Part shown: piece after piece, positions 513 to 30,696 of the stretch
Layout of the letters: every line of letters starts with the position of its first letter
Position numbering within the stretch: the first letter of the stretch is position 1
From: Gallionellaceae bacterium
Lineage (GTDB): Bacteria > Pseudomonadota > Gammaproteobacteria > Burkholderiales > Gallionellaceae
Direction: 5' to 3'
Assembly: GCA_009773615.1 (NCBI GenBank)
Contig: WSYA01000020.1
Span: forward strand, 1 to 34,327
DNA: 34,327 bases
The notes under the pieces: generated by a model
What the model saw: the letters and a program-made list of their open reading frames with translations, nothing else
The model's database searches: none
Told to the model about the DNA's origin: nothing
Position numbers and translations under genes: made by a program

Positions 513-2606
513 CTACGCATTTTCAGCGGTGACGACAGGTTTGCTGGCCAGACTTTCCAGCAGCAATGTCTGCGCGCATTTCGGTGACGTGCTGCGCGTA
601 GTTTTCAAGTGCCAGCCTCCGTCACCGTCCATTTCCCACGCCTGACAATTATCTTGCAGGTAGGTTTTTAATCCCTCGTCGATAACACGCTTCTTCAGCT
701 TGTTATCTAGCAGCGGAAAACACGCCTCAATGCGACGGAAGAAGTTGCGATCCATCCAATCCGCACTCGACAGATAGACATCGTGCGCGAGATCGTTGCG
801 GAAATAAAAGATGCGCGTGTGTTCGAGGAAACGCCCGATAACGGAGCGCACGCTGATGTTGTCGGACAAACCCGGCACGCCCGGACGCAATGCGCATACG
901 CCGCGCACGATCAAATCGATCTTTACGCCCGCGCGCGAAGCTTCATACAGCGCCATGATGATCTCTGGTTCGAGCAGGGCATTCATCTTGGCAATAATCT
1001 GGGCATTCTTGCCGGCCTTGGCCAGTTTGGTTTCATTCTGAATCGCGCGCAGTACTTGGCTATGCAGCGAAAAAGGGGATTGCCACAAGTGTTTTAACTT
1101 GCTGGCTTTGCCCAATCCGGTGAGCTGGACGAATATCTGGTTCACATCGGAACACATATCTTCGTTGCAGGTGAACAGTCCGAAATCCGTGTAGAGCTTG
1201 GCGGTGCGCGGATGGTAGTTGCCGGTGCCCAGATGTACATAGCGCCGCAGCTTTCCATCTTCGCGGCGTATCACCATCAGCATTTTGGCATGTGTCTTGT
1301 GTCCGACTACGCCGTATACGACGTGCGCGCCCGCCTGTTCCAGACGGCTCGCCCAATTAATATTGGCCTCTTCATCGAAGCGCGCCAGCAATTCCACCAC
1401 CACCGTGACCTCTTTACCGCCTTGAGAGGCGGCAATGAGCGCTTCCATCAGGGCGGAATCCGCGCCGGTGCGGTAGACAGTTTGCTTGATGGAGACCACA
1501 TTAGGATCGGCAGCTGCCTGCTGGATGAAGTCGATCACCGGGCGAAAAGACTGATAGGGGTGATGCAGCAGCACATCGCCTTTGCGGATGAGCTTGAACA
1601 TGTCCGCGCCTTTTTTTTGCAGGCTGGGTGGCATGCCCGGCACAAAAGAAGGGAACTTCAAATCGTCGCGCTCTACCTCATCCGGTATACGCATCAATCG
1701 CACCAGATTGACCGGGCCATGCACGCGATACAAGTCCTCGGGCTGAAGATCGAATTGCTGCAACAAAAATTCGGACATTTCCGGCGTACAGTTATCCGCG
1801 ACTTCCAGACGTACCGCATCGCCGAAATGGCGCTGCGGCAACTCGCCCTGCAGGCTGATGCGCAAATTCTTTACTTCTTCTTCGTCCACGAACAGATCGC
1901 TATTGCGCGTGACGCGGAACTGATAACAGCCCAACACGTCCATTCCGGAAAATAATTCGCCGACATGCGCATGCAATATGGACGACAGGAACACAAAACC
2001 GTGTTCGCATCCCGCGATGTCGGACGGCATTTTGATCGCGCGCGGCAGTACGCGCGGGGCTTGCACTATGGCCTTGGCGGAATTGCGTCCAAAAGCATCT
2101 TTGCCGCTGAGCTCGACTGCAAAATTCAAGCTTTTGTTGAGCACGCGCGGAAAAGGGTGCGATGGATCTAACCCGATGGGGGTGAGTATCGGCATCACTT
2201 CGCGCAGAAAAAAATCTTTTACCCAAGCACTTTGCACTTCGTTCCAGTGCGTGCGGCGCAGAAAGTGCACACCCGCAGTCGCCAGTGTGGGAACCAGATC
2301 GTTATTGAAGATCTGATACTGTTGCTCGATGATTTTATGTGCCTGATCGCGTACCCGCTTGAGAATTTGCGGGGCATCGAGTCCGTCCGGGCCGGTAGTG
2401 ACTGCACCGAGCTTGACCTGCTCTTTTAATCCCGCCACTCGAATTTCAAAAAACTCGTCCAGATTACTGCTGACGATACACAGATATTTGAGGCGCTCCA
2501 GCGGCGGAATGTTGGGATTCTCAGCTTGTGCCAAAACGCGCCGGTTGAACTCCAGCAATCCGAGTTCCCGGTTCAGAAATTGTTGCGGGGGATATTTTTT
2601 TACCAC
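513..2606 (-). CDS. ppk: Polyphosphate kinase 1
   Basis: Ppk1 reversibly transfers the gamma-phosphate of ATP onto inorganic polyphosphate through a phosphohistidine intermediate. With the start chosen here the protein has 697 residues, normal for the family. The N-terminal domain begins almost at once with FLNRELGLLEFNRRVL. The first catalytic His is in the HAK motif near residue 439, followed by GTGNYHPRTAKLYTDFGLFT. The second conserved His is near 596, in EHTRIF. The reading frame stays open upstream to 2906, but that extension runs through yggX in another frame and has no family likeness. I therefore place the start at the GTG at 2606-2604, 14 bases after the yggX stop and behind an AGG eight bases upstream. 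It is the last gene of a leftward argA-yggX-ppk group. The start is inferred; the identity is firm. Confidence 0.95.
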   Translation of the reverse strand: MVKKYPPQQFLNRELGLLEFNRRVLAQAENPNIPPLERLKYLCIVSSNLDEFFEIRVAGLKEQVKLGAVTTGPDGLDAPQILKRVRDQAHKIIEQQYQIFNNDLVPTLATAGVHFLRRTHWNEVQSAWVKDFFLREVMPILTPIGLDPSHPFPRVLNKSLNFAVELSGKDAFGRNSAKAIVQAPRVLPRAIKMPSDIAGCEHGFVFLSSILHAHVGELFSGMDVLGCYQFRVTRNSDLFVDEEEVKNLRISLQGELPQRHFGDAVRLEVADNCTPEMSEFLLQQFDLQPEDLYRVHGPVNLVRLMRIPDEVERDDLKFPSFVPGMPPSLQKKGADMFKLIRKGDVLLHHPYQSFRPVIDFIQQAAADPNVVSIKQTVYRTGADSALMEALIAASQGGKEVTVVVELLARFDEEANINWASRLEQAGAHVVYGVVGHKTHAKMLMVIRREDGKLRRYVHLGTGNYHPRTAKLYTDFGLFTCNEDMCSDVNQIFVQLTGLGKASKLKHLWQSPFSLHSQVLRAIQNETKLAKAGKNAQIIAKMNALLEPEIIMALYEASRAGVKIDLIVRGVCALRPGVPGLSDNISVRSVIGRFLEHTRIFYFRNDLAHDVYLSSADWMDRNFFRRIEACFPLLDNKLKKRVIDEGLKTYLQDNCQAWEMDGDGGWHLKTTRSTSPKCAQTLLLESLASKPVVTAENA

Positions 2607-2620
2607 TTTGACGACCTGTT

Positions 2621-2893
2621 TTAGTGAGCTTGGGGGATGAATCCCGGCGGCATCTGAGTGCCGGCGCCAAAGAAATAATTCTCCATCTGTTCGGCCAGAT
2701 ACTTGCGGGCTTTCGCGTCCGCCAAGTTGAGCCGATTTTCGTTCACCAGCATGGTCTGAAATTTGATCCAGCCCTGCCACGCTTCCTTCGACACGTTCTC
2801 GTAGATCCGCTGTCCCAACGGCCCCGGGTATGTCGGACGATCCAACCCCTCCGCTTCGCGACCGAGTTTTACGCACTGCACCATTCTTGCCAT
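2621..2893 (-). CDS. yggX: Fe(2+)-trafficking / oxidative damage protection protein YggX
   Basis: This 90-residue cytoplasmic protein belongs to the YggX family, small proteins linked to iron handling and protection of iron-sulfur clusters from oxidative damage. The sequence carries the family hallmarks: a V[13 protein letters not shown] start with the conserved Cys at residue 7, P-Y-P-G-x-L-G-x-R-I-Y near 21-31, and the W-x-x-W-x-x-x-Q-T-M-L helix near 39-49. GGAG lies eight bases before the ATG. The stop is 14 bases before the ppk start, so the two genes are probably co-transcribed. A naive reading of the longest ppk frame hides this gene. Confidence 0.95.
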
Positions 2894-2978
2894 TTATCGA
2901 CTCCATATCGGGTTAAATACTAAGCGTCTATTGTGACGCGCTGATGACAAGCTGTAACAATTGCCTGTCTGAACTATT

Positions 2979-7410: not shown

Positions 7411-8928
7411 ATGCGCATCTTTCGAGTTATCAAAATTTTTTATGTGGTTCTGCGCTTTGGCTTGGATGAGTTTTTGCTCGCGCATGAGCGCACCCGATGG
7501 TTGCAGACGCCGCTGAATATTCTTCTGTTCGCGCGTAATACTTCGGCGCCGCGCGCTGAACGTTTGCGTCTGGCACTGGAAAGTTTGGGGCCCATCTTCG
7601 TTAAATTCGGCCAGATGTTGTCTACACGGCGCGACCTGATGCCGATAGATATCGCCGACGAGTTGGCCAAACTTCAGGATCAAGTGCCCCCTTTTCCTTC
7701 CGCTCAAGCTGTTGCTGTTCTGGAATCTATCTACAAGAAGAAACTTTCCGAGGTTTTCCGCAGCTTCGACGAAACCCCCATCGCCAGTGCATCTGTGGCA
7801 CAAGTCCACTTTGCCGTGTTACCCGATGGCCGCGAAGTAGCCGTCAAAATTTTGCGCCCGGGTATCGTCCACGTCATCGAGCACGACCTCGCTTTGCTCG
7901 ATATCTGCGCCGGATTGATGGAGCGTCTGTGGGCCGACGGGAAACGATTGAAACCAAAACTGGTTGTGGCCGAATTTGAAAAGTATCTGCACGACGAGCT
8001 CGATCTGATGCGCGAGGCTTCCTGCGCCAGCCAGTTAAAACGCAACTTCGCCAAGTCCGATTTACTGCTGGTGCCCGAGATGTACTGGGACTGGTGCGAC
8101 ACCAACGTGATTGTGATGGAGCGCATGTATGGCATTCCGATCAGCCAGATGGACGCATTGCGCGCCGCAAATATCAATATCTCCAAACTTGCTTCCGACG
8201 GTGTTGAAATTTTCTATATGCAGGTGTTCCGCGATGGCTTTTTCCACGCCGACATGCATCCGGGCAATATCCAAGTGGCATCCGACGGGCGCTACATCGC
8301 TTTGGATTTCGGCATCATGGGTACGCTTAGCGATACCGACAAAAACTATCTCGCGCAGAACTTCATCGCTTTTTTCAACCGCGACTACAAGCGGGTGGCC
8401 GAGGTGCACATCGAATCGGGCTGGGTGCCTGCGCATACCCGTGTTGATGAACTGGAAGCGGCTATTCGCGCGGTTTGCGAACCCATCTTCGACCGGCCAT
8501 TGCGCGAGGTATCTTTCGGCAAAGTGTTGTTGCGCCTGTTCCAAACGTCGCGCCGTTTCGGCGTGGAGATACAACCGCAACTGGTGTTGCTGCAAAAGAC
8601 GCTGCTCAATATTGAGGGCTTGGGTTTACAGTTGGATCCCGAGCTTGATCTGTGGAAAACCGCCAAGCCCTGGCTGGAGCGCTGGATGAATGAGCAGGTC
8701 GGCTGGCGCGGCTTCCTCAAATCCTTGAAAGAAGAGGCACCGCGTTATGCCATATTGCTGCCGCAAATCCCGCGCTTGCTGCATCAGCGCCTTAACGAAA
8801 ATCCCGCTGCGCAGTACGAAGCTGTATTGCGCGACTTCATGCTGCAACAGAGGAAACGGAATTTTTGGCTGATGCTGATCGCGCTTGCTGCAATCATTGC
8901 GACGTGTTCGCTGGTACTGCGTTTTTAG
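7411..8928 (+). CDS. ubiB: Ubiquinone biosynthesis protein kinase-like UbiB
   Basis: UbiB is a membrane-anchored atypical kinase/ATPase of the ABC1/ADCK/COQ8 family needed for ubiquinone synthesis, probably by moving or presenting hydrophobic intermediates to the Ubi enzymes. At 505 residues it fits the long proteobacterial form. The KxGQ motif is at 65-68 (KFGQ). The alanine-rich nucleotide loop ASASVAQVH is at 125-133. The invariant Lys in VAVKILRP is near 146. HADMHPGN spans 279-286 and DFG 299-301. One or two hydrophobic segments (about 486-503) anchor the C-terminus. The start ATG is assigned by family length; a GGAA lies a little far upstream. The gene stands alone after a terminator and converges on the orphan ParA gene with a 10-base gap. 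Confidence 0.95.
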
Positions 8929-8938
8929 CGTTCTGTTG

Positions 8939-9709
8939 TCAGTTGTCGAAAAATCCGCTTTTCATCAATTCTATAGTCAGGGCTTTGTAGTCAGCTGCTC
9001 CTGGCGTATGCGGACCGAAAGCGAATATATCCAAACCATGCATCGGGCTAGTCGCCAACGCTACGTTTTCCCCGACACGGGTTTGGCATACCTGCGAACC
9101 GTAGCGTTCTTTCAGTTTGTCGTAGATGTCGTAAGAAAGTTTACGGCGCGAGTCGAAGCGGGTGACCACGATACGACGCTCGAATTTGCGCTGAAGTTTC
9201 TTTTCCAGAACGTTCAAAGCCGCATCCAGGCGATGCACGCCTTGTTGCGAAAGAAAATCGGCTGCGACTGGAATCAATACTCTATCTGCTGCCAGCAATG
9301 CGTTGAGTGTAAGCACTCCCAACATCGGACAACAATCTATTAATATCGGTGCGCCCGTAAGCGCCAATTCTTCGCTCAAACCTTGTTTCAACAGCTTGGC
9401 CGCATTTGGGTCGCTGCCATAAGTTGCGTCGATTTTTGACAGTTCGATCGAGGACGGAATTATTTGCCATCCTGCGGGGGTGTCGTGCAAAAGTTGAGCT
9501 AGTGGCGTTTTATCCTTGAAGAAGGTCGCCATGTTGCGTCCTTGTGTTCGAGCATCTTTCAATCCGGAAGCCAGACTCAGTGATCCCTGCGGATCCATGT
9601 CCAAGGCGATAGGCTGTTTCTGGGCAATAGCTAACCCGGCAACGATGTTCAGGGTGGAAGTTGTCTTGCCTACCCCGCCTTTTTGATTGAATACGGCGAT
9701 GACCGCCAT
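8939..9709 (-). CDS. Orphan ParA/MinD-family ATPase
   Basis: This 256-residue protein is a second ParA-type ATPase, clearly different from the parA next to parB. The deviant Walker A motif KGGVGKTT is at residues 10-17 with both signature lysines. The A-prime box DMDPQG is near 37-42 and Walker B PILIDCCP is at 121-128. Such ATPases dimerise on ATP and form gradients on DNA or membrane that place chromosomes, plasmids or protein cargo. No ParB-like partner gene is adjacent; the neighbours are glmS (upstream, same strand) and ubiB (convergent). GGAG lies about eight bases before the ATG. There is no N-terminal helix-turn-helix, so it is of the short (type Ib or orphan) kind. Its cargo cannot be told from sequence. 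Confidence 0.85.
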   Translation of the reverse strand: MAVIAVFNQKGGVGKTTSTLNIVAGLAIAQKQPIALDMDPQGSLSLASGLKDARTQGRNMATFFKDKTPLAQLLHDTPAGWQIIPSSIELSKIDATYGSDPNAAKLLKQGLSEELALTGAPILIDCCPMLGVLTLNALLAADRVLIPVAADFLSQQGVHRLDAALNVLEKKLQRKFERRIVVTRFDSRRKLSYDIYDKLKERYGSQVCQTRVGENVALATSPMHGLDIFAFGPHTPGAADYKALTIELMKSGFFDN

Positions 9710-9755
9710 ATGATTTCTCCACGTAGTGGGAACGATACTGAGTTTGGTCGCCCGG

Positions 9756-9791
9756 CGAATAACCCTGCTTGATAGCTTTTCAGGTTATTCG
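9756..9791 (-). repeat. Inverted repeat across the glmS stop codon
   Basis: CGAATAACC at 9756-9764 and GGTTATTCG at 9783-9791 are exact reverse complements with an 18-base loop. The 3' arm includes the glmS stop codon. No T-run follows on the minus strand, so it is not a standard intrinsic terminator. It could shape mRNA ends between glmS and the orphan ParA gene. Confidence 0.35.
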
Positions 9792-11611
9792 ACAGTTACC
9801 GACTTCGCCAGATTGCGCGGCTTGTCAACATCAGTTCCCTTTTGCAATGCCACGTAATATGCCAGCAGTTGCAAAGGTATCGTGTGAAGAATAGGGCTTA
9901 GAAAACCCGCGTGTTCGGGCATTTGCATCACATGCACACCTTCGCTGGAGTGAATACGCGTCTCTGCATCTGCAAAAACATACAGCTCGCCACCGCGCGC
10001 GCGTACTTCCTGCAAATTGGATTTCAGCTTTTCCAGCAAGGTATCGTTGGGCGCCACAGCGATGACGGGCATGTCTTCGTCCACCAAGGCTAAAGGCCCG
10101 TGCTTCAGCTCTCCGGCGGGATAGGCCTCGGCATGAATATAAGAAATCTCTTTCAGCTTTAATGCGCCTTCCAATGCAATCGGGTAATGCAGTCCGCGCC
10201 CGAGGAACAGGGCATGATGTTTATTGGCAAAATGTTTTGCCAACTTGGCAATCTCCGGCTCCAGCTTCAATACGGCCAATACCGCGCTGGGCAAATGGCG
10301 CAGGTCGTGCAGATGCTGTTGTTCTTGTTGTTCGTTCAGCTTTCCGCGTTGTTTCGCCAATACGAGGGTCAGCAGGAATAAGGCCGCTAATTGAGTGGTG
10401 AACGCCTTGGTCGAGGCTACACCGATTTCCGGGCCCGCTCTGGTCAGCAGACGCATCTTGGATTGGCGGATGATTGCACTCTCTGGCACATTGCATATTG
10501 CCAACGTGTGCAGGTGTCCTATGGATTTAGCGTAATTAAGTGCGGCTAGCGTATCCGCCGTTTCACCGGACTGGGAGATAGTAACCACCAACTGTCGCGG
10601 ATTTGCGACGCTCACTCGATAGCGGTATTCGCTGGCAATTTCGACCACACAAGGAATGCCAGCCAGCTCTTCCAACCAATAGCGCGCCACCATCCCCGCA
10701 TGGTGGCTGGTGCCGCAAGCCAAAATCAGGATGCTATCTATTTGTGCAAATGCACCGGCTGCTTCCGCACCAAAGATTCCCGGTACCAAAGACTGACTGT
10801 TGCATACCGACTCCAACGTGTTCGCCAGCGCTTGGGGCTGCTCGTGAATCTCTTTCTGCATGTAATGCTGGTACTCACCCAGTTCCACACTCGCATTGTT
10901 CAGCTCGCTGATGTTAACTGCGCGCTTTACCTCGACCCCAGTTGCATCGAAAATGCGATAGTCAGTCAGCGCCAACTCAACCACATCGCCCTCTTCCAGA
11001 TACACGACTTTCTGCGTGACTTGCAGCAGCGCCGACATATCCGACGCGATGAAGTGCTCACCCTCTCCGACACCCAATAGCAGCGGGCTGCCTTTGCGCG
11101 CGCCTATCAGTTGTTGCGGGTTATCCGCTGCTACTACGCCGATGGCGTAGGCACCCACTAGCTGCGCAAGTGCTGCCCGTGTTGCTGCCAACAAGTTTTT
11201 ATCCTTGATGTAATACGAGTGAACCAGGTGTGCAATGACTTCGGTATCGGTATCCGATGTGAACACATAACCTTGAGCCGTCAGTTGCGTGCGCAGCTCT
11301 TCATAGTTTTCGATAATGCCGTTGTGAACTACCGCGATGAGATCGCGGCTCATGTGCGGGTGGGCATTGCGTTCGCTCGGTATGCCATGGGTCGCCCAAC
11401 GCGTATGTGCTATTCCTATTCGGCCCTGCGTATTGGCGCTTTTCTCGGTTAATTCTGCTACGCGTCCGGTGCTGCGGACTCGTTCCAGTTTGTTGTCCTT
11501 TACAACGACCAGTCCGGCCGAATCGTAGCCGCGATATTCCAGCCTCAGCAAACCCTGTATCAGGATGGGTACAACATTGCGTTGCGCAACTGCGCCGACT
11601 ATTCCACACAT
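9785..11611 (-). CDS. glmS: Glutamine-fructose-6-phosphate aminotransferase (isomerising)
   Basis: GlmS makes glucosamine-6-phosphate from fructose-6-phosphate and glutamine, the entry step to UDP-GlcNAc for peptidoglycan and lipopolysaccharide. The 608 residues match the family. Cys2 directly after the initiator Met is the N-terminal nucleophile of the glutaminase domain (about 1-240), with HTRWATHG and NGIIENY motifs. Two SIS sugar-isomerase domains follow, with [17 protein letters not shown] and [12 protein letters not shown]. The C-terminus ends KSVTVE as expected. It lies 25 bases after glmU on the same strand, so the two consecutive-pathway genes form an operon. No ribozyme-type leader is visible, in line with other Gram-negative glmS genes. 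Confidence 0.97.
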
Positions 11612-19979: not shown

Positions 19980-20822
19980 TTATTTTAAACGAGCGATCAA
20001 CTCGTCGAGATGATCGTTGCTTGAGTATTCAATAATCAATTTCCCCGCGCCTTTTTTTCCCGCTTTTATATGCACTGCGGTACCGAGGCATTGAGATAAG
20101 TTTTCTTGCAAATTCAATGCATCCCGATCCTGAGCCGGTTTTTTATGCTTGGGTTGCGGGTTCAACAACGCCTGCACGAGCTTTTCAGCCTCCCTTACCG
20201 AAAGGCCGTCGGCCACAATTTTATTGGCCGATGCCACCAATTGCGCGGCATCCAAAGGAAGCAAAGCCCGCGCATGCCCCATGTCCAGCTTATTCTCCAT
20301 CAGCATGTTCTGCACAATCTCCGGCAGCTTTAGCAGGCGCAGCAAATTGCTTGCCGCGCTGCGCGAACGCCCCACAGCATCTGCCGCAGTTTGGTGCGTC
20401 ATTTGAAATTCATCGATCAGGCGTTGAATGCCTATGGCCTCTTCCAGCGGATTGAGGTCTTCCCGCTGAATATTCTCGATCAGCGCCATGGCCAGCGCCG
20501 CATTGTCCGGCACTTTGCGCACCAGAACTGGCACCTGCGTCAGTCCAGCCAATTGTGCGGCACGCCAACGGCGCTCACCCGCAATAATCTCGTAGCCGCC
20601 ATTCACCAATTCGCGCGCCAGAATGGGTTGCATGATTCCCTGCGCCTTTATCGAAGCGGCAAGCTCCTTCAGCGACTCCTCATCCATGCGGCTGCGCGGC
20701 TGATATTTTCCCGGCTTAAGCTGATCAACTTTGAGCTCGCGCAAAGCATCGCTGCCCTGCTCTTTGCTTCCCGCCAACAGTGCGTCTAGGCCGCGCCCGA
20801 GTCCTTTGTTTGGTTTTGCCAT
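19980..20822 (-). CDS. parB: Chromosome partition protein ParB
   Basis: ParB binds parS sites, hydrolyses CTP and spreads along DNA as a clamp, giving ParA a cargo to move and loading SMC complexes near the origin. The 280-residue protein starts KPNKGLGRGLDALL as in chromosomal ParB proteins. The CTP-binding motifs are visible: GERRWRA at 82-88 and ENIQREDLNPLEEA near 116-129. A helix-turn-helix (about 143-165, TAADAVGRSRSAASNLLRLL) recognises parS. The C-terminal 60 residues form the dimer domain. AAGGAAG precedes the ATG, nine bases after the parA stop. Matching parS sites are present at 24216 and 30697. Confidence 0.97.
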   Translation of the reverse strand: MAKPNKGLGRGLDALLAGSKEQGSDALRELKVDQLKPGKYQPRSRMDEESLKELAASIKAQGIMQPILARELVNGGYEIIAGERRWRAAQLAGLTQVPVLVRKVPDNAALAMALIENIQREDLNPLEEAIGIQRLIDEFQMTHQTAADAVGRSRSAASNLLRLLKLPEIVQNMLMENKLDMGHARALLPLDAAQLVASANKIVADGLSVREAEKLVQALLNPQPKHKKPAQDRDALNLQENLSQCLGTAVHIKAGKKGAGKLIIEYSSNDHLDELIARLK

Positions 20823-20831
20823 GATTCTTCC

Positions 20832-21617
20832 TTAAATTGAACCTGTTGTCGTTCGCGATGCGTTATTGAGCAATTCCCCGGCCAACGCCAGATACGCCAA
20901 GGTACCCTTGGATAGGCTATCGTGGTAAAGCACCGGAAGCCCGTAGCTTGGCGCTTCCGCCAAGCGCACATTGCGCGGAATAACCGTGCGATATACCTTC
21001 TCGCCAAAATGCTGCTGCAATTGATCCGAGACTTGTTGCGCCAAAGTATTGCGCGGATCAAACATGGTTCGCAGCAGACCTTCAATCTCCAACTCGGGAT
21101 TGAGGTGAGCGCGTACTTTACGTATGGTATTGACCAAGTCGCTCAAGCCCTCCAGCGCATAATATTCGCACTGCATCGGAATCATGACCGATTGTGCGGC
21201 ACACAGACCATTCAAAGTAAGCAAATTCAACGACGGCGGACAGTCGATAAGCACATAGTCATAGTCGTCATAAACAACCTCTAGCGCTTTCTTCAGGCGC
21301 ATTTCGCGATTGTCGAGGTCAACCAGTTCGATTTCCGCTCCCGCTAATTCGCGGTTGGCGGGCAACACATCATATTTACCCTGTTCGGCAGTAGCGCGTA
21401 CTTCACGGATAACTTTCTGCCCCAGAAGCACATCGTAAACCGTCGCGGTAAGCCCCAGCTTGTCGATGCCGCTGCCCATAGTGGCATTGCCCTGCGGATC
21501 AAGGTCGATCAACAAAACCCGCTGTTTTGCTGCCGCAAGACTTGCTGCAAGATTCACCGTGGTGGTGGTCTTTCCCACCCCCCCTTTTTGATTGGTAACC
21601 GCAAGTATTTTGATCAT
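20832..21617 (-). CDS. parA: Chromosome partition ATPase ParA (Soj)
   Basis: ParA binds nucleoid DNA as an ATP dimer, and the ParB-parS complex follows its retreating gradient to separate origins. The 261-residue protein is the short chromosomal type with KGGVGKTTTT at 11-20. LLIDLDPQGNATMGSGID lies near 36-53 and DYVLIDCPPSLNLLTLN near 112-128. The frame is open to 21644, but the family N-terminus [13 protein letters not shown] starts at the ATG at 21617. That codon overlaps the rsmG stop by ATGA. It is followed by parB after nine bases. Confidence 0.97.
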   Translation of the reverse strand: MIKILAVTNQKGGVGKTTTTVNLAASLAAAKQRVLLIDLDPQGNATMGSGIDKLGLTATVYDVLLGQKVIREVRATAEQGKYDVLPANRELAGAEIELVDLDNREMRLKKALEVVYDDYDYVLIDCPPSLNLLTLNGLCAAQSVMIPMQCEYYALEGLSDLVNTIRKVRAHLNPELEIEGLLRTMFDPRNTLAQQVSDQLQQHFGEKVYRTVIPRNVRLAEAPSYGLPVLYHDSLSKGTLAYLALAGELLNNASRTTTGSI

Positions 21618-22237
21618 ATATTTTCTCTCAACACCACCAAACAACGTGCCGCCTCTAGATTTGGAACTTGCAAAGGAATAATTTGCTCAACCAGCACCCC
21701 CTCGGGCAAGCGTGTTAATTCTTGCTCAGGCATCCCTTTCATTGCGGCCCAACGCCCATCCCTTGCCAGCAAATGGCGCGTTAAAGCGACAAATTCCGCC
21801 GTTTCTGCAAAAGCCCGGGAAATTATCCCGTCATACTTTTCCGCAACTTGCCATTCTTCAATTCGCCCGCAACACACTTCTACGTTGCGCAAGCCCAACT
21901 CTATGCAAGCCTGTTGGACAAAACTGGTTTTCTTGCTATTGCTATCCAGCAATGTAAACGACCACTCCGGTCGCACAATCGCCAATACAACGCCCGGCAA
22001 ACCGGCACCGCATCCCACATCCAGCCAGCGCTTTGGCCACAGATGCGGCAATACAGCCAGACTATCGAGCAAGTGGTTACTCACCATTTGTTCCGGCTCG
22101 CGTATCGCCGTCAGGTTGTATACCTTGTTCCACTTGTGCAAAAGTGCCAGAAAATCCAGCAGTTTTTGTTGTTGCTCCGCAGCAACATTTACACCCAGCT
22201 GCGTTATGCCACTCGACAAATCCGAAGCCAGCGTCAT
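21614..22237 (-). CDS. rsmG: 16S rRNA (guanine527-N7)-methyltransferase
   Basis: RsmG (GidB) methylates N7 of G527 in the 530 loop of 16S rRNA using S-adenosylmethionine; its loss usually gives low-level streptomycin resistance. The 207 residues are typical. The SAM-binding motif [11 protein letters not shown] is at 72-82. NLTAIRE (41-47) and the HLLDSL helix before it are conserved. ISRAFAE near 135 is the family's catalytic-region segment. It overlaps both neighbours by ATGA (mnmG upstream and parA downstream), so translation of the mnmG-rsmG-parA run is probably coupled. Confidence 0.96.
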
Positions 22238-24141
22238 TGGCTCAGACGGGCTGTAGCGCTTGTAGCGCCCGCCCCTCCCCGCTTCAGGTGTACCAACAAC
22301 AAAGAAATGGCCGCCGGTGTTATACCTGAAATTCTGGCGGCCTGTCCCAATGTTTCCGGTCGTTGCTGATTTAATTTCTGCCGCACTTCCGCCGACAGAC
22401 CGGACACCGCCAGATAATCCATAGTTACCGGCAACTTTAATTCTTCATTCTCTAGCTGGCGCGCAATTTCGTCATGCTGGCGCTCAATGTATCCCTGATA
22501 TTTGGCCTGCGTTTCAACCTGCTCGGCGACCTTACTGTCGCCCACGCCTGCGCCCGCACCGTCCATAGACATCAGATTCTCATAACTGACATCCGGCCGG
22601 CGCAACAATTCGTACAGCGAATATTCGCGCTCAATGTTTTTCCCGAGCACCCGCTCCGCCTCTGCGACCGCCAATATTCTGGGATTTACCCAGGTGGACT
22701 TCAGGCGCTCCAACTCTTGCGCCACGCGCTCACGCTTGTTCTCAAACGCCATCCAGCGTGCATCGTCAACCAACCCCAATCGGCGGCCGATTTCCGTCAT
22801 GCGCATGTCGGCGTTATCCTCGCGCAACTGCAAGCGATACTCCGCGCGACTCGTGAACATCCGATACGGCTCCAACACGCCCTGCGCAGTCAGATCATCC
22901 ACCAACACGCCCAAATACGCCTCGTCGCGACGGGGGTGCCACGAATCTTCCTCCCGTGCATAGCGCGCCGCATTCAATCCGGCCAACAAACCCTGCGCGG
23001 CAGCCTCTTCGTACCCCGTTGTCCCGTTGACTTGGCCCGCCAAAAACAAACCCTTTATTGCCTTGGTTTCCAGCGAAGTCTTGAGCCCGCGCGGGTCGAA
23101 ATAGTCGTATTCAATGGCATAACCGGGGCGGGTGATATAGGCATTTTCCAGCCCCTTGATAGAGCGCACCAGCGCCAGTTGCACATCGAACGGCAGACTG
23201 GTCGAAATGCCGTTTGGATACACCTCATGCGTGCTCAGACCCTCCGGCTCCAGAAATATCTGGTGCGAATCCTTATCCGCAAAGCGCGTGATCTTGTCCT
23301 CGATAGAGGGGCAATAACGCGGCCCCACCCCCTCGATTACCCCGGTAAACATCGGCGAACGATCTAGTCCGCCACGGATAATGTCGTGGGTTTGTTTATT
23401 CGTTTGCGTGATCCAGCAAGGCAATTGCTGCGGATGCTGCTCTGCCCTGCCCATAAACGAAAACACGGGCACCGGATCGTCGCCGGGCTGCTCCACCATC
23501 ACCGAGTAATCAATGCTGCGCCCGTCTATGCGCGGCGGCGTACCCGTCTTCAGGCGTCCGACAGGCAAACTCAACTCGCGCAGGTCGCGCGACAGCGCGA
23601 TGGACGGAGGGTCGCCCGCCCGCCCCGCCGGGTAATTTGCAAGCCCGACATGAACCAGACCGGACAGAAACGTACCCGCCGTCAACACCACGCTTTTCGC
23701 CATGAAACGCAGGCCCAGCTGGGTTTCAATGCCGATGACCCGATCGCCGTTCATCAGCAACTTTTCTACCGCCTGCTGAAACAGCCAGAGACCGGGCTGA
23801 TTTTCTAAGCGGCTGCGTATGGCTTGCTTGTACAAGGCGCGATCCGCCTGCGCCCGCGTGGCCCGCACTGCCGGCCCCTTGGATGAATTCAAGATGCGGA
23901 ACTGTATACCCGCCTCATCGGTAGCGGCCGCCATCGCCCCGCCCAGCGCATCCACCTCTTTTACCAGATGTCCCTTGCCGATGCCGCCGATGGAAGGATT
24001 GCACGACATTACCCCCAGCGTCTCGATATTGTGCGTAACGAGCAACGTAGCCCGGCCCATGCGCGCACTGGCAAGGGCAGCCTCCGTCCCGGCGTGACCG
24101 CCGCCCACCACGATTACATCAAATTCTTTTGGGTAATTCAT
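22234..24141 (-). CDS. mnmG: tRNA uridine 5-carboxymethylaminomethyl modification enzyme MnmG
   Basis: MnmG (GidA) works with MnmE to build the cmnm5 group on wobble uridine 34 of several tRNAs, using FAD, NADH and a folate one-carbon unit. The protein has 635 residues. The FAD dinucleotide motif GGGHAG is at 13-18. [17 protein letters not shown]-type sequence is seen as [11 protein letters not shown] and [14 protein letters not shown]. The two family signatures [11 protein letters not shown] and the [19 protein letters not shown] stretch are present. The frame is open to 24174, but [15 protein letters not shown] at 24141 is the expected start, with only a weak GCGGG upstream. A parS site lies in the 96-base gap behind it. 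Confidence 0.97.
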
Positions 24142-24215
24142 CAACAACCCGCGCCAAATAAAGGCGCGCATCATACAACAAAATATGTCCGCGCAAGGAT
24201 CACCCTAGAAAAAGG

Positions 24216-24229
24216 GTTTCACGTGAAAC
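24216..24229. promoter_or_regulatory. parS: parS centromere-like site 1
   Basis: GTTTCACGTGAAAC is a perfect 14-bp palindrome identical to the core of the widely conserved chromosomal parS sequence bound by ParB. It lies in the 96-base gap between mnmG and mnmE, about 3.4 kb from parB and 3.8 kb from dnaA. A second identical copy is at 30697-30710. Confidence 0.93.
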
Positions 24230-24237
24230 AACTTCTG

Positions 24238-25590
24238 CTATTTTCCAATGCAGAAACGGCTGAATATCTCACCCAACAGATCATCACTGGAGAATTCCCC
24301 GGTAATTTTGCTTAAAGCATCCTGAGCAAAACGAAGCTCCTCGGCAAACAGTTCGGTGCGCGCGCTTTCTGCGGCGGCGCGTTGCAAACCCTGCTTGGCC
24401 TGCAACAACGCCTGAACATGGCGCTCCCGGGCCATAAACACCCCCGATTCCGCGTGCCAGTCCATCAGCTGCAATATTTTTTTGCGCAGCAGATCAATAC
24501 CCTCGTCGTTCTTTGCGGACACGTAGATATAGCTATCCCCGTCGCGGGTTTCCGCGCGCGCGGCTTGATTCAGCAAGTCGATTTTATTGATCACATGCAG
24601 CCTGGGAATATTGTCGGGGATTAACGCCAGAATCTCCTGGTGTGCCGCCTGTTCTTTTTGCCGCGCATCCGTCAGCAACAGGATCGCATCAGCCTCCCGC
24701 ATCGCCTGTTTGGTGCGCTCCATCCCCATGCGCTCAACGACATCCTGCGACTCGCGCAAACCCGCCGTATCGATGATGTGCAGCGGCACGCCGTCTATAT
24801 TGATCGCCTGACGTATGGTGTCCCGCGTGGTGCCGGCAATCTCGCTCACCAGGGCGACCTCCGCCCCGGACAAGCGGTTGAGCAGCGTGGATTTGCCGAC
24901 ATTGGGCTGACCGACCAGAACAATATGCGCACCTTCGCGCAATATGCTGCCCTGCCGGGCTAAATTGAACACCCGCTCCAACTCGGTAGCAATTGCGTTC
25001 AACTTGTTTTCGCAGCGCTCTGTGTCGGCAACATCCAGCTCTTCTTCGGGAAAGTCGAGAGATGCCTCCACCAGCATGCGCAAATCGATCAGACCCGCCA
25101 CCAGCTTATGAATCGCCGAGGAGAAATCCCCCTGCAAAGAACGCTGGGCGCTGCGTACGGCTTGTTCGCTGGTGGCATTGATCAAATCGGCCACGCTCTC
25201 CGCCTGAACGAGATCCAGCTTGTTATTAAGAAAGGCGCGCTGCGTGAATTCGCCGGGCTGCGCAAGGCGGGCACCCGACGCCAAGCAGCGTTGAAGAATC
25301 AAATGCAGAACCGCCGTGCCGCCGTGCCCCTGCAACTCCAATACATCTTCTCCTGTATACGAGTTGGAGCCGGGGAAATATAGCGCGATACCGTGGTCTA
25401 TGGCGGAACCATCGGCATCCAAAAAGGGAACATAGGCGGCATGGCGCGGAGACGGCGCCTGCCCGAGCAGGGCGACCATAACGGGTGCAATATCAGCGCC
25501 GGATATGCGTACTACGCCGATTCCGCCACGGCCGGGAGCCGTGGCTATAGCGGCGATGGTGTCAGGCTTTTGCAACGCCCTTTTGCTCAT
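24238..25590 (-). CDS. mnmE: tRNA modification GTPase MnmE
   Basis: MnmE (TrmE) is the potassium-activated GTPase partner of MnmG in wobble-uridine modification. The 450-residue protein has the N-terminal folate-binding domain, with IAAIATAPGRGGIGVVRISG near 12-31. A helical domain is interrupted by a G domain: G1 GQPNVGKS at 227-234, G2 GTTRD near 253-257, DTAG at 274-277 and NKID at 335-338. The C-terminal CIGK with the conserved Cys is intact. The ATG at 25590 lies 29 bases inside the end of yidC; a TTG at 25575 is an alternative start. The folate domain begins soon after either one. Confidence 0.96.
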   Translation of the reverse strand: MSKRALQKPDTIAAIATAPGRGGIGVVRISGADIAPVMVALLGQAPSPRHAAYVPFLDADGSAIDHGIALYFPGSNSYTGEDVLELQGHGGTAVLHLILQRCLASGARLAQPGEFTQRAFLNNKLDLVQAESVADLINATSEQAVRSAQRSLQGDFSSAIHKLVAGLIDLRMLVEASLDFPEEELDVADTERCENKLNAIATELERVFNLARQGSILREGAHIVLVGQPNVGKSTLLNRLSGAEVALVSEIAGTTRDTIRQAINIDGVPLHIIDTAGLRESQDVVERMGMERTKQAMREADAILLLTDARQKEQAAHQEILALIPDNIPRLHVINKIDLLNQAARAETRDGDSYIYVSAKNDEGIDLLRKKILQLMDWHAESGVFMARERHVQALLQAKQGLQRAAAESARTELFAEELRFAQDALSKITGEFSSDDLLGEIFSRFCIGK

Positions 25591-27184
25591 TCTCTAAACC
25601 ACGGGTGATATACCATTGTTGTGCAATGGAAAGCACATTGTTTACCACCGAATACAACACCAATCCGGCGGGGAAGAAAAAGAACACCACGCTGAATACA
25701 ATCGGCATAAGTTGCATCAACTTGGCCTGCAACGGATCCGGCGGTACAGGGTTAAGCTTGCTTTGCAGCAGCATGCTGAGACCCATAATCGCGGGCAATA
25801 TAAAGTAGGGATCAGCTGCGGACAGATCCGAGATCCAGCCCACGAATGGCGCATGGCGTAATTCAACGCTGGACAAGATCGCCCAATACAGTGAAATGAA
25901 CACGGGAATTTGAATCAAAACAGGCAAGCATCCGCCCAGAGGATTGATCTTCTCCGTCTTATACAAATCCATCATCGCGCGGTTCAGCTTCTCACGGTCA
26001 TCGCTATATTGCTGCTTTATCTTTTCCAGTTTGGGGGCGACAACGCGCATCTTGCCCATGGAACGGTAACTGGCGGCGGAGAGCGGGAAGAACACCAGCT
26101 TGATCAAAACCGTCAGGATAATAATTGCCAAGCCCCAGTTTTGCACCCAGCCCTGAATGAAAGTAAGCATCCAGAACAGCGGGGTCGCGATGATTGTCAG
26201 CCAGCCATAATCAACTGTCAGACCAAGTCCCGGAGCTATGTCGTTCAGCTTGGCACTGGCCGGGCCGACATATAACGGTACGGTAATATTCCCTTTTTGG
26301 TTTGGCGCAATCGTATTAAGCGACAGAATCGCTCCGACCGAATACTGCTGGTTGCCCAATGACTTGGTGTAATACTCGCGCGCCAGTTTGTCGGCGGGAA
26401 GCCATGCCGCAACAAAGTAATGCTGCAACATGGCTACCCAGCCGTTGTCAGCCATTTTAGGATAACTGGTTTTATTGTTCTCAATGCTTGAAAAGTCGAC
26501 TTTCTGAAATTTTTCCAGGTCTGTGTAAATCGCCGGGCCAGTATATGTCGGCACCAATTTGGAGTCGCCGGCAGGAACAGAGTCATCGCGCACCAGCTGG
26601 AAATACGCCGATGGCGAAATCGGGCTGGCACCCGTATTTACAATTTCATAACCCACATCGATGAGATACTTGCCTCGGTGAAAGGTTAGCACCTTGGTTA
26701 CATTTTTAGCCGTCAACCTCACTGACAGCGTATCTGCACCCTGTGCCAAATTATATTCATCGGCGTCGGAGATAAATTGATCGTGATGGGAAGGCAGGCC
26801 TTCTCCTATCAGCCCTGTTTGAGCCACATACAAGTGTTTTTCATGCTTTTGCAAAAGCACGAGTGGCTTTGTTTTATCTTCTGCATCGTGGTGTTGCAGC
26901 AATTCAACATGCTGAATATCGCCGCCAATAGTATTGATTTCCACTAAAAGGCTATCGGTTCTAACGATTATTTTTTTACCCTGCGCACTGACCTGTCCGG
27001 CAACGTTTTCGCTATGGGTCGCAAGCGTGGCGGCGGGTTTGGGCGTTTCCACACCGGCGGAGGCTGCCGGCGAAACCGCCGTTTGCGCTACCGGTACAGG
27101 ATGCTGATACCGCTGCCAGCCGTCCCATAACAATATGGCGGAAAAAGAAAATATCAGAAAAAGGAATATTCTTTGGAAGTCCAT
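25562..27184 (-). CDS. yidC: Membrane protein insertase YidC
   Basis: YidC inserts and folds inner-membrane proteins, alone or with SecYEG; subunits a and c of ATP synthase are classic clients. The 540-residue protein has an N-terminal membrane helix (about 5-22) and a long periplasmic domain (about 60-320). The C-terminal insertase core has five helices (about 330-525), including the conserved WGLAIIILTVLIKLVFFPLSAASYRSM stretch seen in segments and the charged hairpin with KYSDDREKLN-like sequence (here QYSDDREKLNRAMM). The groove arginine is in the VLIKLVFFPL region or just after it. It lies 29 bases after yidD and overlaps the start of mnmE by 29 bases. Confidence 0.97.
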   Translation of the reverse strand: MDFQRIFLFLIFSFSAILLWDGWQRYQHPVPVAQTAVSPAASAGVETPKPAATLATHSENVAGQVSAQGKKIIVRTDSLLVEINTIGGDIQHVELLQHHDAEDKTKPLVLLQKHEKHLYVAQTGLIGEGLPSHHDQFISDADEYNLAQGADTLSVRLTAKNVTKVLTFHRGKYLIDVGYEIVNTGASPISPSAYFQLVRDDSVPAGDSKLVPTYTGPAIYTDLEKFQKVDFSSIENNKTSYPKMADNGWVAMLQHYFVAAWLPADKLAREYYTKSLGNQQYSVGAILSLNTIAPNQKGNITVPLYVGPASAKLNDIAPGLGLTVDYGWLTIIATPLFWMLTFIQGWVQNWGLAIIILTVLIKLVFFPLSAASYRSMGKMRVVAPKLEKIKQQYSDDREKLNRAMMDLYKTEKINPLGGCLPVLIQIPVFISLYWAILSSVELRHAPFVGWISDLSAADPYFILPAIMGLSMLLQSKLNPVPPDPLQAKLMQLMPIVFSVVFFFFPAGLVLYSVVNNVLSIAQQWYITRGLENEQKGVAKA

Positions 27185-27213
27185 CTTGGCTTACACCTAA
27201 TACATAGTTTTCA

Positions 27214-27423
27214 TTATGGGACAGGATCGTAACCGCCGGTACTCCAGGGGTTACAGCGTAACAGCCGCCGAATGCCCAGCCACATTCCGCGCAATAAGCC
27301 ATGTTTTACAATGGCTTCGCCAACATAATGCGAGCAAGAAGGGGCAAACCGGCAGGAAGGCGGGGACAACGGGCTGATCAGATATTGATATGCCTTGATG
27401 AAGAAAAGGAACAGGCGCGTCAT
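27214..27423 (-). CDS. yidD: Membrane protein insertion efficiency factor YidD
   Basis: YidD is a small membrane-associated protein that improves YidC-dependent insertion. All 69 residues are present. An N-terminal amphipathic helix ([18 protein letters not shown], about 5-22) is followed by the family core [15 protein letters not shown] with its two cysteines. The RLLRCNPW and GGYDPVP motifs close the protein. The start overlaps the rnpA stop by ATGA, the usual arrangement, and yidC follows 29 bases later. Confidence 0.96.
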
Positions 27424-27770
27424 TTAATTGCCATCCTTAATTTCATTAACAAGCCAGACAGTGATCGCCTGAACTCTGCTGTATCTTCATCGCTTAAACT
27501 TCTTCGAATTCTAACAACGATATCCAAAGTGCTTGAATCAACGGGGGGCGCTTGTCTAAAAACCTCACGAATTACTCGTTTGATTCTATTCCTGGCAACA
27601 GATTTTGCCACCACCCGCTTGCTTACAACTATTCCCAACCGATCTGAACCGACTGCATTTTTTTCAGAATGAAGTGCCAACCACCGATCAATTAAGGCTT
27701 TATTATGCAGCGCGCGCTCGAACTCTTCGCGCCGATGAAGCCGTTGGGAAACTAAAAATTCCTGTGTCAC
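27420..27770 (-). CDS. rnpA: Ribonuclease P protein component
   Basis: RnpA is the protein subunit of RNase P, which trims the 5' ends of precursor tRNAs together with the M1 RNA. The 116-residue basic protein shows the signature [17 protein letters not shown] near 63-79 and the early [11 protein letters not shown]. The likely start is the GTG at 27770, a single base after the rpmH stop. No Shine-Dalgarno sequence stands between them, which points to translational coupling with rpmH. The frame has no ATG nearby. It overlaps yidD by four bases. Confidence 0.95.
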
Positions 27771-27771
27771 A

Positions 27772-27906
27772 TTACACAGCTAAACGCGCACGACCCTTGG
27801 CACGACGGGCGGCGATAACAGCGCGTCCGCCTTTTGTCTTCATGCGAACTAAAAATCCGTGGGTACGCTTTCTCTTGGTTACTGATGGTTGGTATGTACG
27901 TTTCAT
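27772..27906 (-). CDS. rpmH: 50S ribosomal protein L34
   Basis: L34 is a 44-residue, very basic ribosomal protein, too short for many gene finders. The translation begins [19 protein letters not shown] and ends [10 protein letters not shown], matching the family throughout. AAGGA stands seven to eight bases before the ATG. A near-consensus promoter is at 27943-27971. The gene heads the long leftward block and diverges from dnaA, the usual arrangement at bacterial origins. Confidence 0.98.
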
Positions 27907-27942
27907 GGTTGTTCCTTACGTGTTCGTGTTGAAAAGCGCGCG

Positions 27943-27971
27943 ATTACAATACTTAACACCATCCCTGTCAA
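27943..27971 (-). promoter_or_regulatory. rpmH-rnpA promoter
   Basis: On the minus strand a perfect TTGACA (27971-27966) and TGTAAT (27948-27943, 5 of 6) are exactly 17 bases apart. The -10 box is 36 bases before the rpmH start codon. A perfect DnaA box lies 13 bases upstream of the -35 box. Confidence 0.85.
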
Positions 27972-27984
27972 GTTTATTTTATAC

Positions 27985-27993
27985 TGTGGATAA
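27985..27993 (-). promoter_or_regulatory. Perfect DnaA box between rpmH and dnaA
   Basis: TGTGGATAA on the plus strand is the exact reverse complement of the consensus TTATCCACA. It sits between the rpmH -35 box and the candidate dnaA -35 box. This position suits autoregulation of dnaA, tuning of rpmH, or origin function. Confidence 0.85.
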
Positions 27994-28000
27994 CTTTTTT

Positions 28001-28028
28001 TTGAACCTGTAGAATACATTGATAGATT
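28001..28028 (+). promoter_or_regulatory. Candidate dnaA promoter
   Basis: TTGAAC at 28001-28006 and TAGATT at 28023-28028 are 16 bases apart, and the start codon is 19 bases after the -10 box. The match is moderate and the leader would be very short. The adjacent DnaA box at 27985 would let DnaA repress or activate it. No good Shine-Dalgarno sequence precedes the dnaA ATG. Confidence 0.4.
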
Positions 28029-28047
28029 TTTTGAGCCCGCAAACTTT

Positions 28048-29388
28048 ATGTCACACCAAAACCTGTGGGATAGTTGCCTCCAGCATTTTAAAGAGCAACT
28101 ACCCTCACAACAATTTAATTCGTGGATAAAACCTTTGATTTTCGAAGCCAATGGGCATCAAATAATTTTGACCGCGCCCAATGGTTTTACATTAAAAGTT
28201 ATTCAAGAGCGTTTTTTGCCTGAGATAGCCAGTCGTGCCCAAGCTTTTTTCTCCGCGCCGGCTCAAATTGAATTACGCGTTGAAAAGAAAGCGTTGCAAG
28301 CCTCACCTAAAAATCAAATTGCGCCTGCAATTGAAAACCCGTCCTTAATAAAAAAATCTCAAAAAAACTCCGTCCGCTTAAATCCTGCTTTGCTCTTTGA
28401 TAACTTTGTTACCGGAAAAGCCAATCAACTGGCACATGCGGCTGCAATTCAAGTCGCTGAATCACCGGGAACAACCTATAACCCGCTGTTTATATATGGC
28501 GGGGTCGGTTTGGGGAAAACGCATTTAATTCAGGCAATAGGCAATCAATTTAAGCAGGAAAACAAACACGCAAAAATTTGCTACGTTCACGCAACTAATT
28601 ATATATCGGATGTCGTTCGCGCCTTTCAAACCAAACAGTTCGATGAATTCAAACAATATTACAATTCACTGGATCTGTTGCTTATTGACGACATTCAATT
28701 CATCGCCGATAAACCGGGAACACAACAAGAGTTTTTTTATACCCTAAATTCGCTAATCGACGCCAATAAACAAGTCGTTATCACCTGCGATACGTTCCCA
28801 AAAGAAATTTCAGGAATAGAACCTCGCCTTACTTCGCGTTTCAGTTGTGGCTTGACTGTTGCCATTGAACCGCCCGGACTAGAAATGCGTGTGGCAATCT
28901 TGTTGCAGAAGTCAAATATTTCGAAAAATCCCATCGGCGAAGACGTTGCCTTCTTTATTGCAAAGCATGTGCGCTCCAATATACGAGAGTTGGAAGGCGC
29001 GCTTAACAGAATAGAGGCTTTTGCGCGCTTTCATAAGCGCCCTATCACCGTTGAGCTTGCCAAAGAAGCGCTTAAAGATCTGCTTGCGGCACAAAACAAA
29101 CAGGTTTCGATTGAAAATATACAAAAAACGGTCGCTGATTTTTATCGCATCAAGCTGCTCGATTTATTATCGAAAAAACGCACGCGCATAATTGCCAGAC
29201 CGAGACAAATGGCCATGTGTCTCGCGCGTGAATTAACACAATTAAGTTTGCCGGAAATTGGCAATGCATTCGGTGGAAGGGATCATTCAACTGTTCTGCA
29301 TGCGTGTAAAACGATTGAAAACTTGAAAAATACGGATGCTTCATTAAATGCCGATTTCAATTTACTAAATCAGACATTAAGAAACTAA
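28048..29388 (+). CDS. dnaA: Chromosomal replication initiator DnaA
   Basis: DnaA binds DnaA boxes at oriC, opens the AT-rich unwinding element and loads the helicase. The 446-residue protein has domain I at about 1-80 (LWDSCLQHFKEQLPSQQFNSWI in segments). A short linker (80-110) precedes the AAA+ domain III: FDNFVTGKANQLA near 117-129, Walker A GGVGLGKT at 151-158 and Walker B LLIDD at 211-215. Domain IV binds DNA through GGRDHSTV at 409-416. The first part of the gene is AT-rich; I counted 20 G+C in the 60 bases 28081-28140, against 32 of 60 in a stretch of gyrB. It diverges from rpmH and precedes dnaN. Confidence 0.97.
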   Translation: MSHQNLWDSCLQHFKEQLPSQQFNSWIKPLIFEANGHQIILTAPNGFTLKVIQERFLPEIASRAQAFFSAPAQIELRVEKKALQASPKNQIAPAIENPSLIKKSQKNSVRLNPALLFDNFVTGKANQLAHAAAIQVAESPGTTYNPLFIYGGVGLGKTHLIQAIGNQFKQENKHAKICYVHATNYISDVVRAFQTKQFDEFKQYYNSLDLLLIDDIQFIADKPGTQQEFFYTLNSLIDANKQVVITCDTFPKEISGIEPRLTSRFSCGLTVAIEPPGLEMRVAILLQKSNISKNPIGEDVAFFIAKHVRSNIRELEGALNRIEAFARFHKRPITVELAKEALKDLLAAQNKQVSIENIQKTVADFYRIKLLDLLSKKRTRIIARPRQMAMCLARELTQLSLPEIGNAFGGRDHSTVLHACKTIENLKNTDASLNADFNLLNQTLRN

Positions 29389-29583
29389 CGCTAAATTGCA
29401 CGGATGTTTTGTTGATAAGGCAGGCTGCGGTACTAATTTGATAAAACTATACTCATTCTATGCACAGCTTTGGGTTAAGTTTATCAACACATAAAGTGAT
29501 CATTAGTTAATTGTTTTAATTATAAAAAGTACTTTTATACCTAATTTCAACCGTCATTATTATAGTTATTAAGGATATATAAA
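29389..29583. other. oriC: Candidate oriC (dnaA-dnaN intergenic region)
   Basis: This 195-base gap holds three DnaA-box-like 9-mers, each one mismatch from TTATNCACA. They are TTATCAACA in inverted orientation at 29410-29418, CTATGCACA at 29458-29466 and TTATCAACA at 29481-29489. An extremely AT-rich tract follows: bases 29501-29580 contain only 15 G or C. A box cluster beside an AT-rich unwinding stretch next to dnaA is the classical oriC plan. None of the boxes is a perfect match; the only perfect one nearby is at 27985, so the rpmH-dnaA gap is a rival or a second half of a bipartite origin. AAGGA at 29571-29575 is the dnaN ribosome-binding site. Confidence 0.6.
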
Positions 29584-30690
29584 ATGTTTATTGAAAAGAT
29601 AGATAGGGATGCGCTGCTAAAACCGCTACAAACAGTTGTTGGCATAGTCGAGAGAAAACAGCCTTTGCCAATTTTATCGAACGTGCTCATTGAAAAAAAC
29701 AATGCGTCTATTCGATTTATAGCCACCGATCTTGAAATTCAAATATCGACCAACCAAGTAATAGAAGCCAGCGGCGATGACAACGGCTCTGTTACGGTAT
29801 CGGCAAAAAAGTTTCAGGAGATACTCCGGGTGTTGCCCGACGCCAGCAAAGTTTCCCTGGATATTCAGGAAAACAAACTGCTGATTAAAGCCAATAAAAG
29901 CAGATTCAGTTTGCAGACCTTGCCGGCACAGGATTTTCCGGTGGTATCCAACCAGCTGGAAAACGCATCCAAGATCACCATAAAGCAGGGCTTGTTGAAA
30001 AAGCTGCTTGGCTTGGTGCAATACGCGATGGCGCAGCAGGACATCCGTTATTATCTGAACGGCGTTTTGCTGGTGATTGAAGGCTCGACTATCCGTTTGA
30101 TTGCCACAGACGGGCACCGTCTGGCCTATGTCAGCTCCAAACTCGACAGCGAATATGCAAAGCACGAAGTCATTCTTTCCAGAAAAACCGTGAACGAACT
30201 GTCCAAACTGCTTTCGGACTCGGAAGAAATGATCACGTTGGAGCTGGCCGAAAAACAGGTACGCCTGTCTTTTGCAGAAATTGTGCTGACCTCCAAAGTG
30301 ATCGATGGAAAATTCCCGGACTACGAGCGCGTTATTCCCAATTATACAAACCACCTGTTGCTGGACCGCATTACCATCTTGCAGGCATTGCAGCGCGCGG
30401 CGATTCTGTCGAACGAAAAGTTCCGTGGCGTGCGTTTTGTGCTAACCGAGAAAAACCTCAGAATCATCAGTAGTAACAGCGAGCAGGAAGAAGCCCAGGA
30501 AGATATTGAAAACGACTATCACGGCCCGGCGCTGGATATCGGTTTCAATGTGAACTACCTGCTGGACGGATTGAACAACACTTCCGCACAAACCGTAACA
30601 TTCTCATTCGGCGATCCGAATAGCAGCATATTGATCACGGTTCCCGGTGAGGACGAATTCAAATATGTTGTTATGCCGATGCGCATTTAA
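29584..30690 (+). CDS. dnaN: DNA polymerase III beta subunit (sliding clamp)
   Basis: The beta clamp encircles DNA as a dimer and tethers polymerase III and many repair proteins. The 368 residues are the normal length for three similar domains of about 120 residues. Motifs include LQTVVGIVERKQPLPILSNVLIE near 16-38 read in parts, RYYLNGVLLVIEG near 156-168, ATDGHRLA, and a C-terminus ending DEFKYVVMPMRI, the hydrophobic partner-binding pocket edge. AAGGA stands eight bases before the ATG. The next gene is gyrB, not recF; the 47-base gap between them carries a parS site. Confidence 0.97.
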   Translation: MFIEKIDRDALLKPLQTVVGIVERKQPLPILSNVLIEKNNASIRFIATDLEIQISTNQVIEASGDDNGSVTVSAKKFQEILRVLPDASKVSLDIQENKLLIKANKSRFSLQTLPAQDFPVVSNQLENASKITIKQGLLKKLLGLVQYAMAQQDIRYYLNGVLLVIEGSTIRLIATDGHRLAYVSSKLDSEYAKHEVILSRKTVNELSKLLSDSEEMITLELAEKQVRLSFAEIVLTSKVIDGKFPDYERVIPNYTNHLLLDRITILQALQRAAILSNEKFRGVRFVLTEKNLRIISSNSEQEEAQEDIENDYHGPALDIGFNVNYLLDGLNNTSAQTVTFSFGDPNSSILITVPGEDEFKYVVMPMRI

Positions 30691-30696
30691 TTGTAA

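Follow-up and report, generated by a model that had tools for sequence, protein, structure and literature searches.

A glmS-linked orphan ParA of chemosensory-type lineage in Gallionellaceae, a probable positioner of sensing and swimming machinery

The stretch of DNA analyzed here ("the window") is 34,327 nt long and is the whole of contig WSYA01000020.1, part of a 2.37-Mb draft genome of a Gallionellaceae bacterium in which seven matches to the Pfam family AAA_31 are found. The window includes an orphan gene for a ParA-type ATPase, flanked by the housekeeping genes glmS and ubiB. The features relevant to this gene are the following:

8939..9709, minus strand: orphan ParA ATPase gene, 256 aa, of chemosensory-type lineage (from the ORF, AAA_31 match and tree)
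9659..9682, minus strand: deviant Walker A motif, KGGVGKTT, residues 10-17 (translation, alignment)
9587..9601, minus strand: Walker A' region, DMDPQ, residues 37-41 (translation, alignment)
9326..9349, minus strand: Walker B region, PILIDCCP, residues 121-128 (translation, alignment)
9140..9160, minus strand: RFDSRRK, residues 184-190, which holds R184 and R189 (alignment)
9785..11611, minus strand: glmS, upstream neighbor on the same strand, 75-nt gap to the ParA gene
7411..8928, plus strand: ubiB, convergent downstream neighbor, 10-nt gap to the ParA gene
20832..21644, minus strand: canonical chromosomal parA, start probably at 21617, for comparison; product 31% identical to the window ParA
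19980..20822, minus strand: canonical parB, for comparison
513-2906: ppk (polyphosphate kinase) ORF, from a family match

A preliminary description of this DNA, made from the sequence alone, had reported a complete ParA-type ATPase with a deviant Walker A motif, located between glmS and ubiB and apart from the canonical parAB (19980-21644). This is borne out, and the strand, which that description did not give, is minus: the ORF is intact from its ATG at 9709 to its stop codon at 8939, and its product matches AAA_31 over residues 1-177 (9.2e-35). An AlphaFold2 model of the protein has a pLDDT of 92.5, and its best structure matches are ParA/Soj proteins. Thus, motifs (KGGVGKT and the Walker A' and B aspartates), Pfam match and the Soj-like fold of the model all assign the protein to the ParA superfamily, ParA/Soj type. 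Loss of ATPase residues in relatives had been named as an observation that would count against that description; K10, K15, D37, D39 and D125 are invariant among 26 aligned clade members. Orthologues with at least 67% identity occur in 30/36 Gallionellaceae genomes, its own genome counted, so the window ParA is not a chance ORF. The names attached to near relatives in a named collection (26 loci) include Gallionellaceae, Gallionella, Sideroxydans, Sideroxyarcus and Nitrosomonadales, and a scan across the order found a homologue at E<=1e-42 in 156 of the 399 genomes that are at least 90% complete.

As had been stated at the outset, no partner gene lies alongside: ParB, MinE and chemotaxis genes do not adjoin the window ParA, and neither do genes for CheW, ParP or a DPLAWM-type adaptor. 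A DPLAWM-type motif was also not found in the stretches of the window genome that were examined. A promoter and terminator scan of positions 8850-9950 gave three promoter-like sites, with 0.9 expected, none of them upstream of the ParA gene on its strand. The window looks origin-proximal, with parAB, dnaA, dnaN and gyrB (named from reading the ORFs) within 19980-33167; this would place the orphan ParA gene ~18 kb from dnaA.

The relationship of the window ParA to other ParA proteins was examined with two trees. The first (152 sequences) resolved canonical ParA, a group including the CheW-linked ParA of other orders, and the orphans of the order. The second (117 sequences) added motCD-cheB-cheW-linked ParC loci, ParB-linked ParA, and plasmid and phage ParA. 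Supports given here are from FastTree; IQ-TREE was used for topology only. In the 117-sequence tree, the window ParA is a member of a beta-proteobacterial order clade made up of two types, the window type (type A) and type B. The sister group of this order clade consists of the sampled ParA from che operons, with a support of 1.0 for the union in a tree whose sampling does not extend to PpfA itself. The IQ-TREE topology has the same sister relation but nests type B within type A, which may therefore be a grade. R184, R189, E214 and D240 are common to window-type, type B and che-operon ParA, and canonical ParA and ParC have other residues at these positions. The tree check that had been proposed therefore puts the window ParA beside che-operon ParA and outside the ParC, ParB-linked, and plasmid and phage groups.

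Two assignments were considered and rejected on the basis of the tree. First, membership in ParC had been inferred from the che and flagellar neighbors of some relatives, but motCD-linked ParC forms a distinct clade of its own (support 1.0), with the window clade outside. Second, a plasmid or phage origin, which the preliminary description had named as the placement that would count against it, is not seen: the best matches among plasmid and phage ParA reach 36% and 38% identity, and the sampled ones lie outside the window clade. A related idea is that the window ParA partitions DNA, either as a chromosomal ParA or as a domesticated plasmid or phage ParA. The ParA/Soj fold and the apparently origin-proximal locus fit this idea, as does the next group out from the order clade and che-operon ParA, which consists of four plasmid and one phage ParA (0.99). 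However, there is no ParB alongside, canonical parAB is present in the same window, and the tree position is outside ParB-linked, plasmid and phage ParA. A role in DNA partition is therefore quite improbable.

The che operons of the sister clade include CheA, CheW and CheD, and the gene adjoining ParA in them encodes a globin-PAS-HAMP-MCP soluble receptor or a STAS protein. A DPLAWM-like motif is found near an ORF start in 11/11 che-type loci fetched at length. In these 11 loci, which come from other orders (L198-L206, L208, L209), the ORF that follows ParA opens with a basic stretch and the DPLAWM-like motif, a candidate ParA-binding peptide of the receptor or STAS protein.

Conserved neighbors, the other check that had been suggested, tie the window clade to glmS in most loci and to che or flagellar clusters in some relatives. 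glmS lies within 2.6 kb of the ParA gene in 49/72 clade loci and is always co-directional; ubiB is within 2.6 kb and convergent in 17/72. Other downstream neighbors vary by family and include argS/SPOR/DsbA-like genes, a gene for a TPR protein and anthranilate synthase (names by eye). A flgM or motD match is found within 4 kb in 8/72 loci, one of which (L104) has only a weak motD match, and 15/72 have neither glmS nor flgM/motD near the ParA gene. The clearest flagellar linkage is in another Gallionellaceae genome (G016), where an orthologue 75% identical to the window ParA sits at the end of a continuous cluster, cheV-cheV-cheY-cheZ-cheA-cheR-cheB-flhB-flhA-flhF-flhG-fliA-motC-motD-flgN-flgM; two CheV, CheZ, CheA, a FliA-type sigma factor, MotA- and MotB-type proteins, FlgN and FlgM are confirmed by Pfam, and the others were named by eye. 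Further flagellar-linked orthologues are those at L099, L100, L110, L112, L113 and L120. At L103 and L105, the genes right after ParA are one for a response regulator and a CheC/CheX-like gene, and in two genomes (G069, G112) a related ParA from the type B side adjoins cheV genes and cheZ. No small conserved partner gene was seen adjoining window-type ParA across the clade loci. In flagellar-linked orthologues of one family, the gene directly after ParA encodes a ~247-aa protein that looks like a coiled coil and matches no Pfam family, and a gene for a GGDEF protein comes next (L112:5620-6366, L211:12864-13601); the ~247-aa protein is a candidate partner of window-type ParA in that family.

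The presence of ppk in the window (513-2906) had prompted the proposal that the orphan ParA positions polyphosphate granules. ppk occurs in 0/71 other clade loci (locus stretches with a median of 13.5 kb), so its presence here looks incidental, and granules are a very improbable cargo. The ppk ORF itself has ~100 residues ahead of the start of the family match, so its true start may lie further downstream. The more general suggestion, that an orphan ParA positions a specific cargo, holds up, and for chemosensory arrays, one of the cargoes then listed, there is support in the tree, the gene neighborhoods and the co-occurrence data.

Co-occurrence with chemotaxis and flagella was assessed across the 399 order genomes. 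Type A was defined by an identity of at least 50% and the absence of a small partner gene nearby, except that one genome (G069) was taken out of it because of where it falls in the tree; type counts rest on the 150 ParA matches listed, and strong CheV means E<1e-100. FliF is above the cut-off in 264/399 genomes. Among the matches listed, window-type ParA is found in at least 66/399 genomes, and FliF in 63 of those 66. The presence of CheV tracks window-type ParA closely: among the matches listed, strong CheV is found in 64/66 carriers versus 80/333 other genomes (P 7e-31 with kinship ignored). The converse does not hold, with 80 CheV-strong genomes lacking window-type ParA among the matches listed, and in one clade genome (G107) no CheV reaches the threshold. 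The three FliF-negative carriers have 2, 6 and 7 CheW-domain ORFs, and CheV in each, weak in one. Strong CheV is present in 28/51 families, and these include every one of the 15 in which the clade occurs (P about 1e-5, counts by hand from tables). The association is kept in a within-family exact test (P=4e-8; 2e-4 once the two most informative families are left out), which covered genomes among those listed, many negatives falling outside that listing. Within Gallionellaceae, 12/12 FliF-positive genomes have window-type ParA versus 0/3 FliF-negative genomes, of which two have no CheW and one has two CheW-domain ORFs. Two further genomes of the family (G011, G018; 89% and 96% complete) lack window-type ParA and have 6 and 7 CheW-domain ORFs.

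These patterns raise the question of whether the window ParA governs the placement, number or export of flagella, with FlhF/FlhG or FlgN/FlgM, rather than an array. The flagellar-linked orthologues adjoin flgM, flgN and motD, and FliF accompanies nearly all carriers, as such a role would predict. Yet the window genome, which encodes FliF, CheA, CheV, CheZ, FlhF and FlhG, has a separate FlhG-like gene adjoining flhF and fliA on contig 73, and the nearest relatives outside the clade are encoded in che operons. Moreover, CheV splits carriers from non-carriers even when only FliF-positive genomes are considered, with strong CheV in 62/63 versus 80/201 among the matches listed. Flagellar control without the array is thus unlikely.

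A further possibility is that the cargo is something else, such as pili, a metabolic body or an envelope complex near GlmS, and that the che linkage is inherited or incidental. glmS is indeed the commonest linkage, and type B, the sister paralogue, comes with a small partner of its own and shows no FliF enrichment. Type B is the second orphan of the window genome, on contig 2; it is 45% identical to the window ParA and belongs to the same order clade. Its partner is a ~73-aa convergent gene directly downstream of ParA, a gene that window-type ParA lacks:

L050:10099-10329, minus strand: type B small partner gene, next to the ParA on contig 2 of the window genome

The small partner gene is present in 84/399 order genomes. 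It lies within 2.5 kb of 62 of the 150 ParA matches listed, downstream and convergent in 61/62; 26/88 small-gene matches have no listed ParA nearby, partly because only ParA among the matches listed were counted. The small protein falls below every Pfam and NCBIfam threshold. Its model (pLDDT 75.7) has a beta-beta-alpha-beta arrangement plus a conserved, ISLISK-like C-terminal helix, and a fold search with it gave no match at E<=0.001. It looks like an undescribed ParA partner. Genomes with the small gene are not enriched for FliF (50/84), so the type B system probably has no connection with flagella. For the window type, by contrast, CheV tracks ParA tightly within families, and the gene has been lost in the three FliF-negative Gallionellaceae genomes, which makes some other cargo a doubtful proposition.

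How does the window ParA compare with known systems? The closest are PpfA, of Rhodobacter sphaeroides CheOp3, and PpfA-like che-operon ParA. PpfA homologues are reported in che operons of 77/206 species, and PpfA is described as working via the N-terminus of the receptor TlpT (PMC2829493, PMC3964821). Like these systems, the window ParA has no ParB, and it shares R184, R189, E214 and D240 with the sampled che-operon ParA. It differs in lying beside glmS and ubiB rather than in a che operon, with only some orthologues in che-flagellar clusters, and in having no adjoining receptor or STAS protein with a DPLAWM-like N-terminus. In a tree without true PpfA, it is sister to the PpfA-like clade and not inside it; it is not classed as PpfA proper because it is not in a che operon. 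ParC, found in Vibrio (ParC/ParP; PMC5706961) and other polar flagellates, has the same fold and a similar tie to chemotaxis and flagella, and some window-type orthologues are near motC-motD, as is ParC. Nevertheless, the sampled motCD-cheB-cheW-linked ParC are only 25-34% identical and form a separate clade, and no parP or cheW adjoins the window ParA; it is not classed as ParC because of its tree position. Chromosomal ParA/Soj of ParABS systems shares the fold and ATPase motifs but differs in its adjoining parB and tree position, and the window has its own canonical copy elsewhere. The motif KGGVGKT differs from the McdA motif, tabulated as SGGQGKT (PMC9178275), and no carboxysome gene was recognized in the window from reading the ORFs. 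Neither minE nor flhF, one of which would be expected beside a MinD or FlhG gene, adjoins the window ParA; glmS and ubiB do. Several A/D ATPases have been reported in Halothiobacillus (PMC10241942).

The fold, the motifs, the tree position, the che and flagellar linkage in some relatives, and the co-occurrence with CheV and FliF are directly supported. We consider it reasonably likely that the window gene is a ParA of chemosensory-type lineage that has been displaced from a che locus and now lies beside glmS in Gallionellaceae as well as in several further beta-proteobacterial families, and that it positions a chemosensory or flagellar cargo. Its cargo is probably part of the machinery for sensing and swimming, and not DNA or storage granules, because the nearest ParA proteins place chemotaxis clusters and its carriers are almost only relatives that are both motile and chemotactic. 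Counting against this reading is that glmS, not che genes, adjoins ParA in the window and in most clade loci. The lack of an adjoining adaptor gene, the 80 CheV-strong genomes without window-type ParA among the matches listed, and the genomes G011, G018 and G107 count against it as well. By analogy with the family, the window ParA would bind ATP and dimerize, and the dimer would coat the nucleoid non-specifically. An adaptor on the cargo, encoded away from the ParA locus, would stimulate the ATPase, and the cargo would thereby be positioned and shared at division. That cargo may be the flagellum's chemosensory array, or else the flagellar pole with which it works; the flagellar linkage and the CheV tracking fit both alike. 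A more speculative extension, which we put forward as a long shot, is that the beta-proteobacterial flagellar array is positioned by ParA with neither ParP nor an N-terminal peptide carried on a receptor, that the adaptor is CheV or a component encoded elsewhere, and that the move to the atp-glmUS region freed the gene from the che operon.

No published description of window-type ParA was found in the open-licence literature returned on ParA in Gallionella, glmS-linked ParA, and orphan or beta-proteobacterial chemotaxis ParA; what was returned on Gallionella ParA and on orphan chemotaxis or flagellar ParA appeared to concern different topics or different ParA systems. Chemosensory ParA proteins are usually recognized by their position in che operons. 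The window-type lineage suggests that a relative can move to a housekeeping locus and be overlooked there as just another "ParA family protein"; for this lineage, a testable cargo can now be named.
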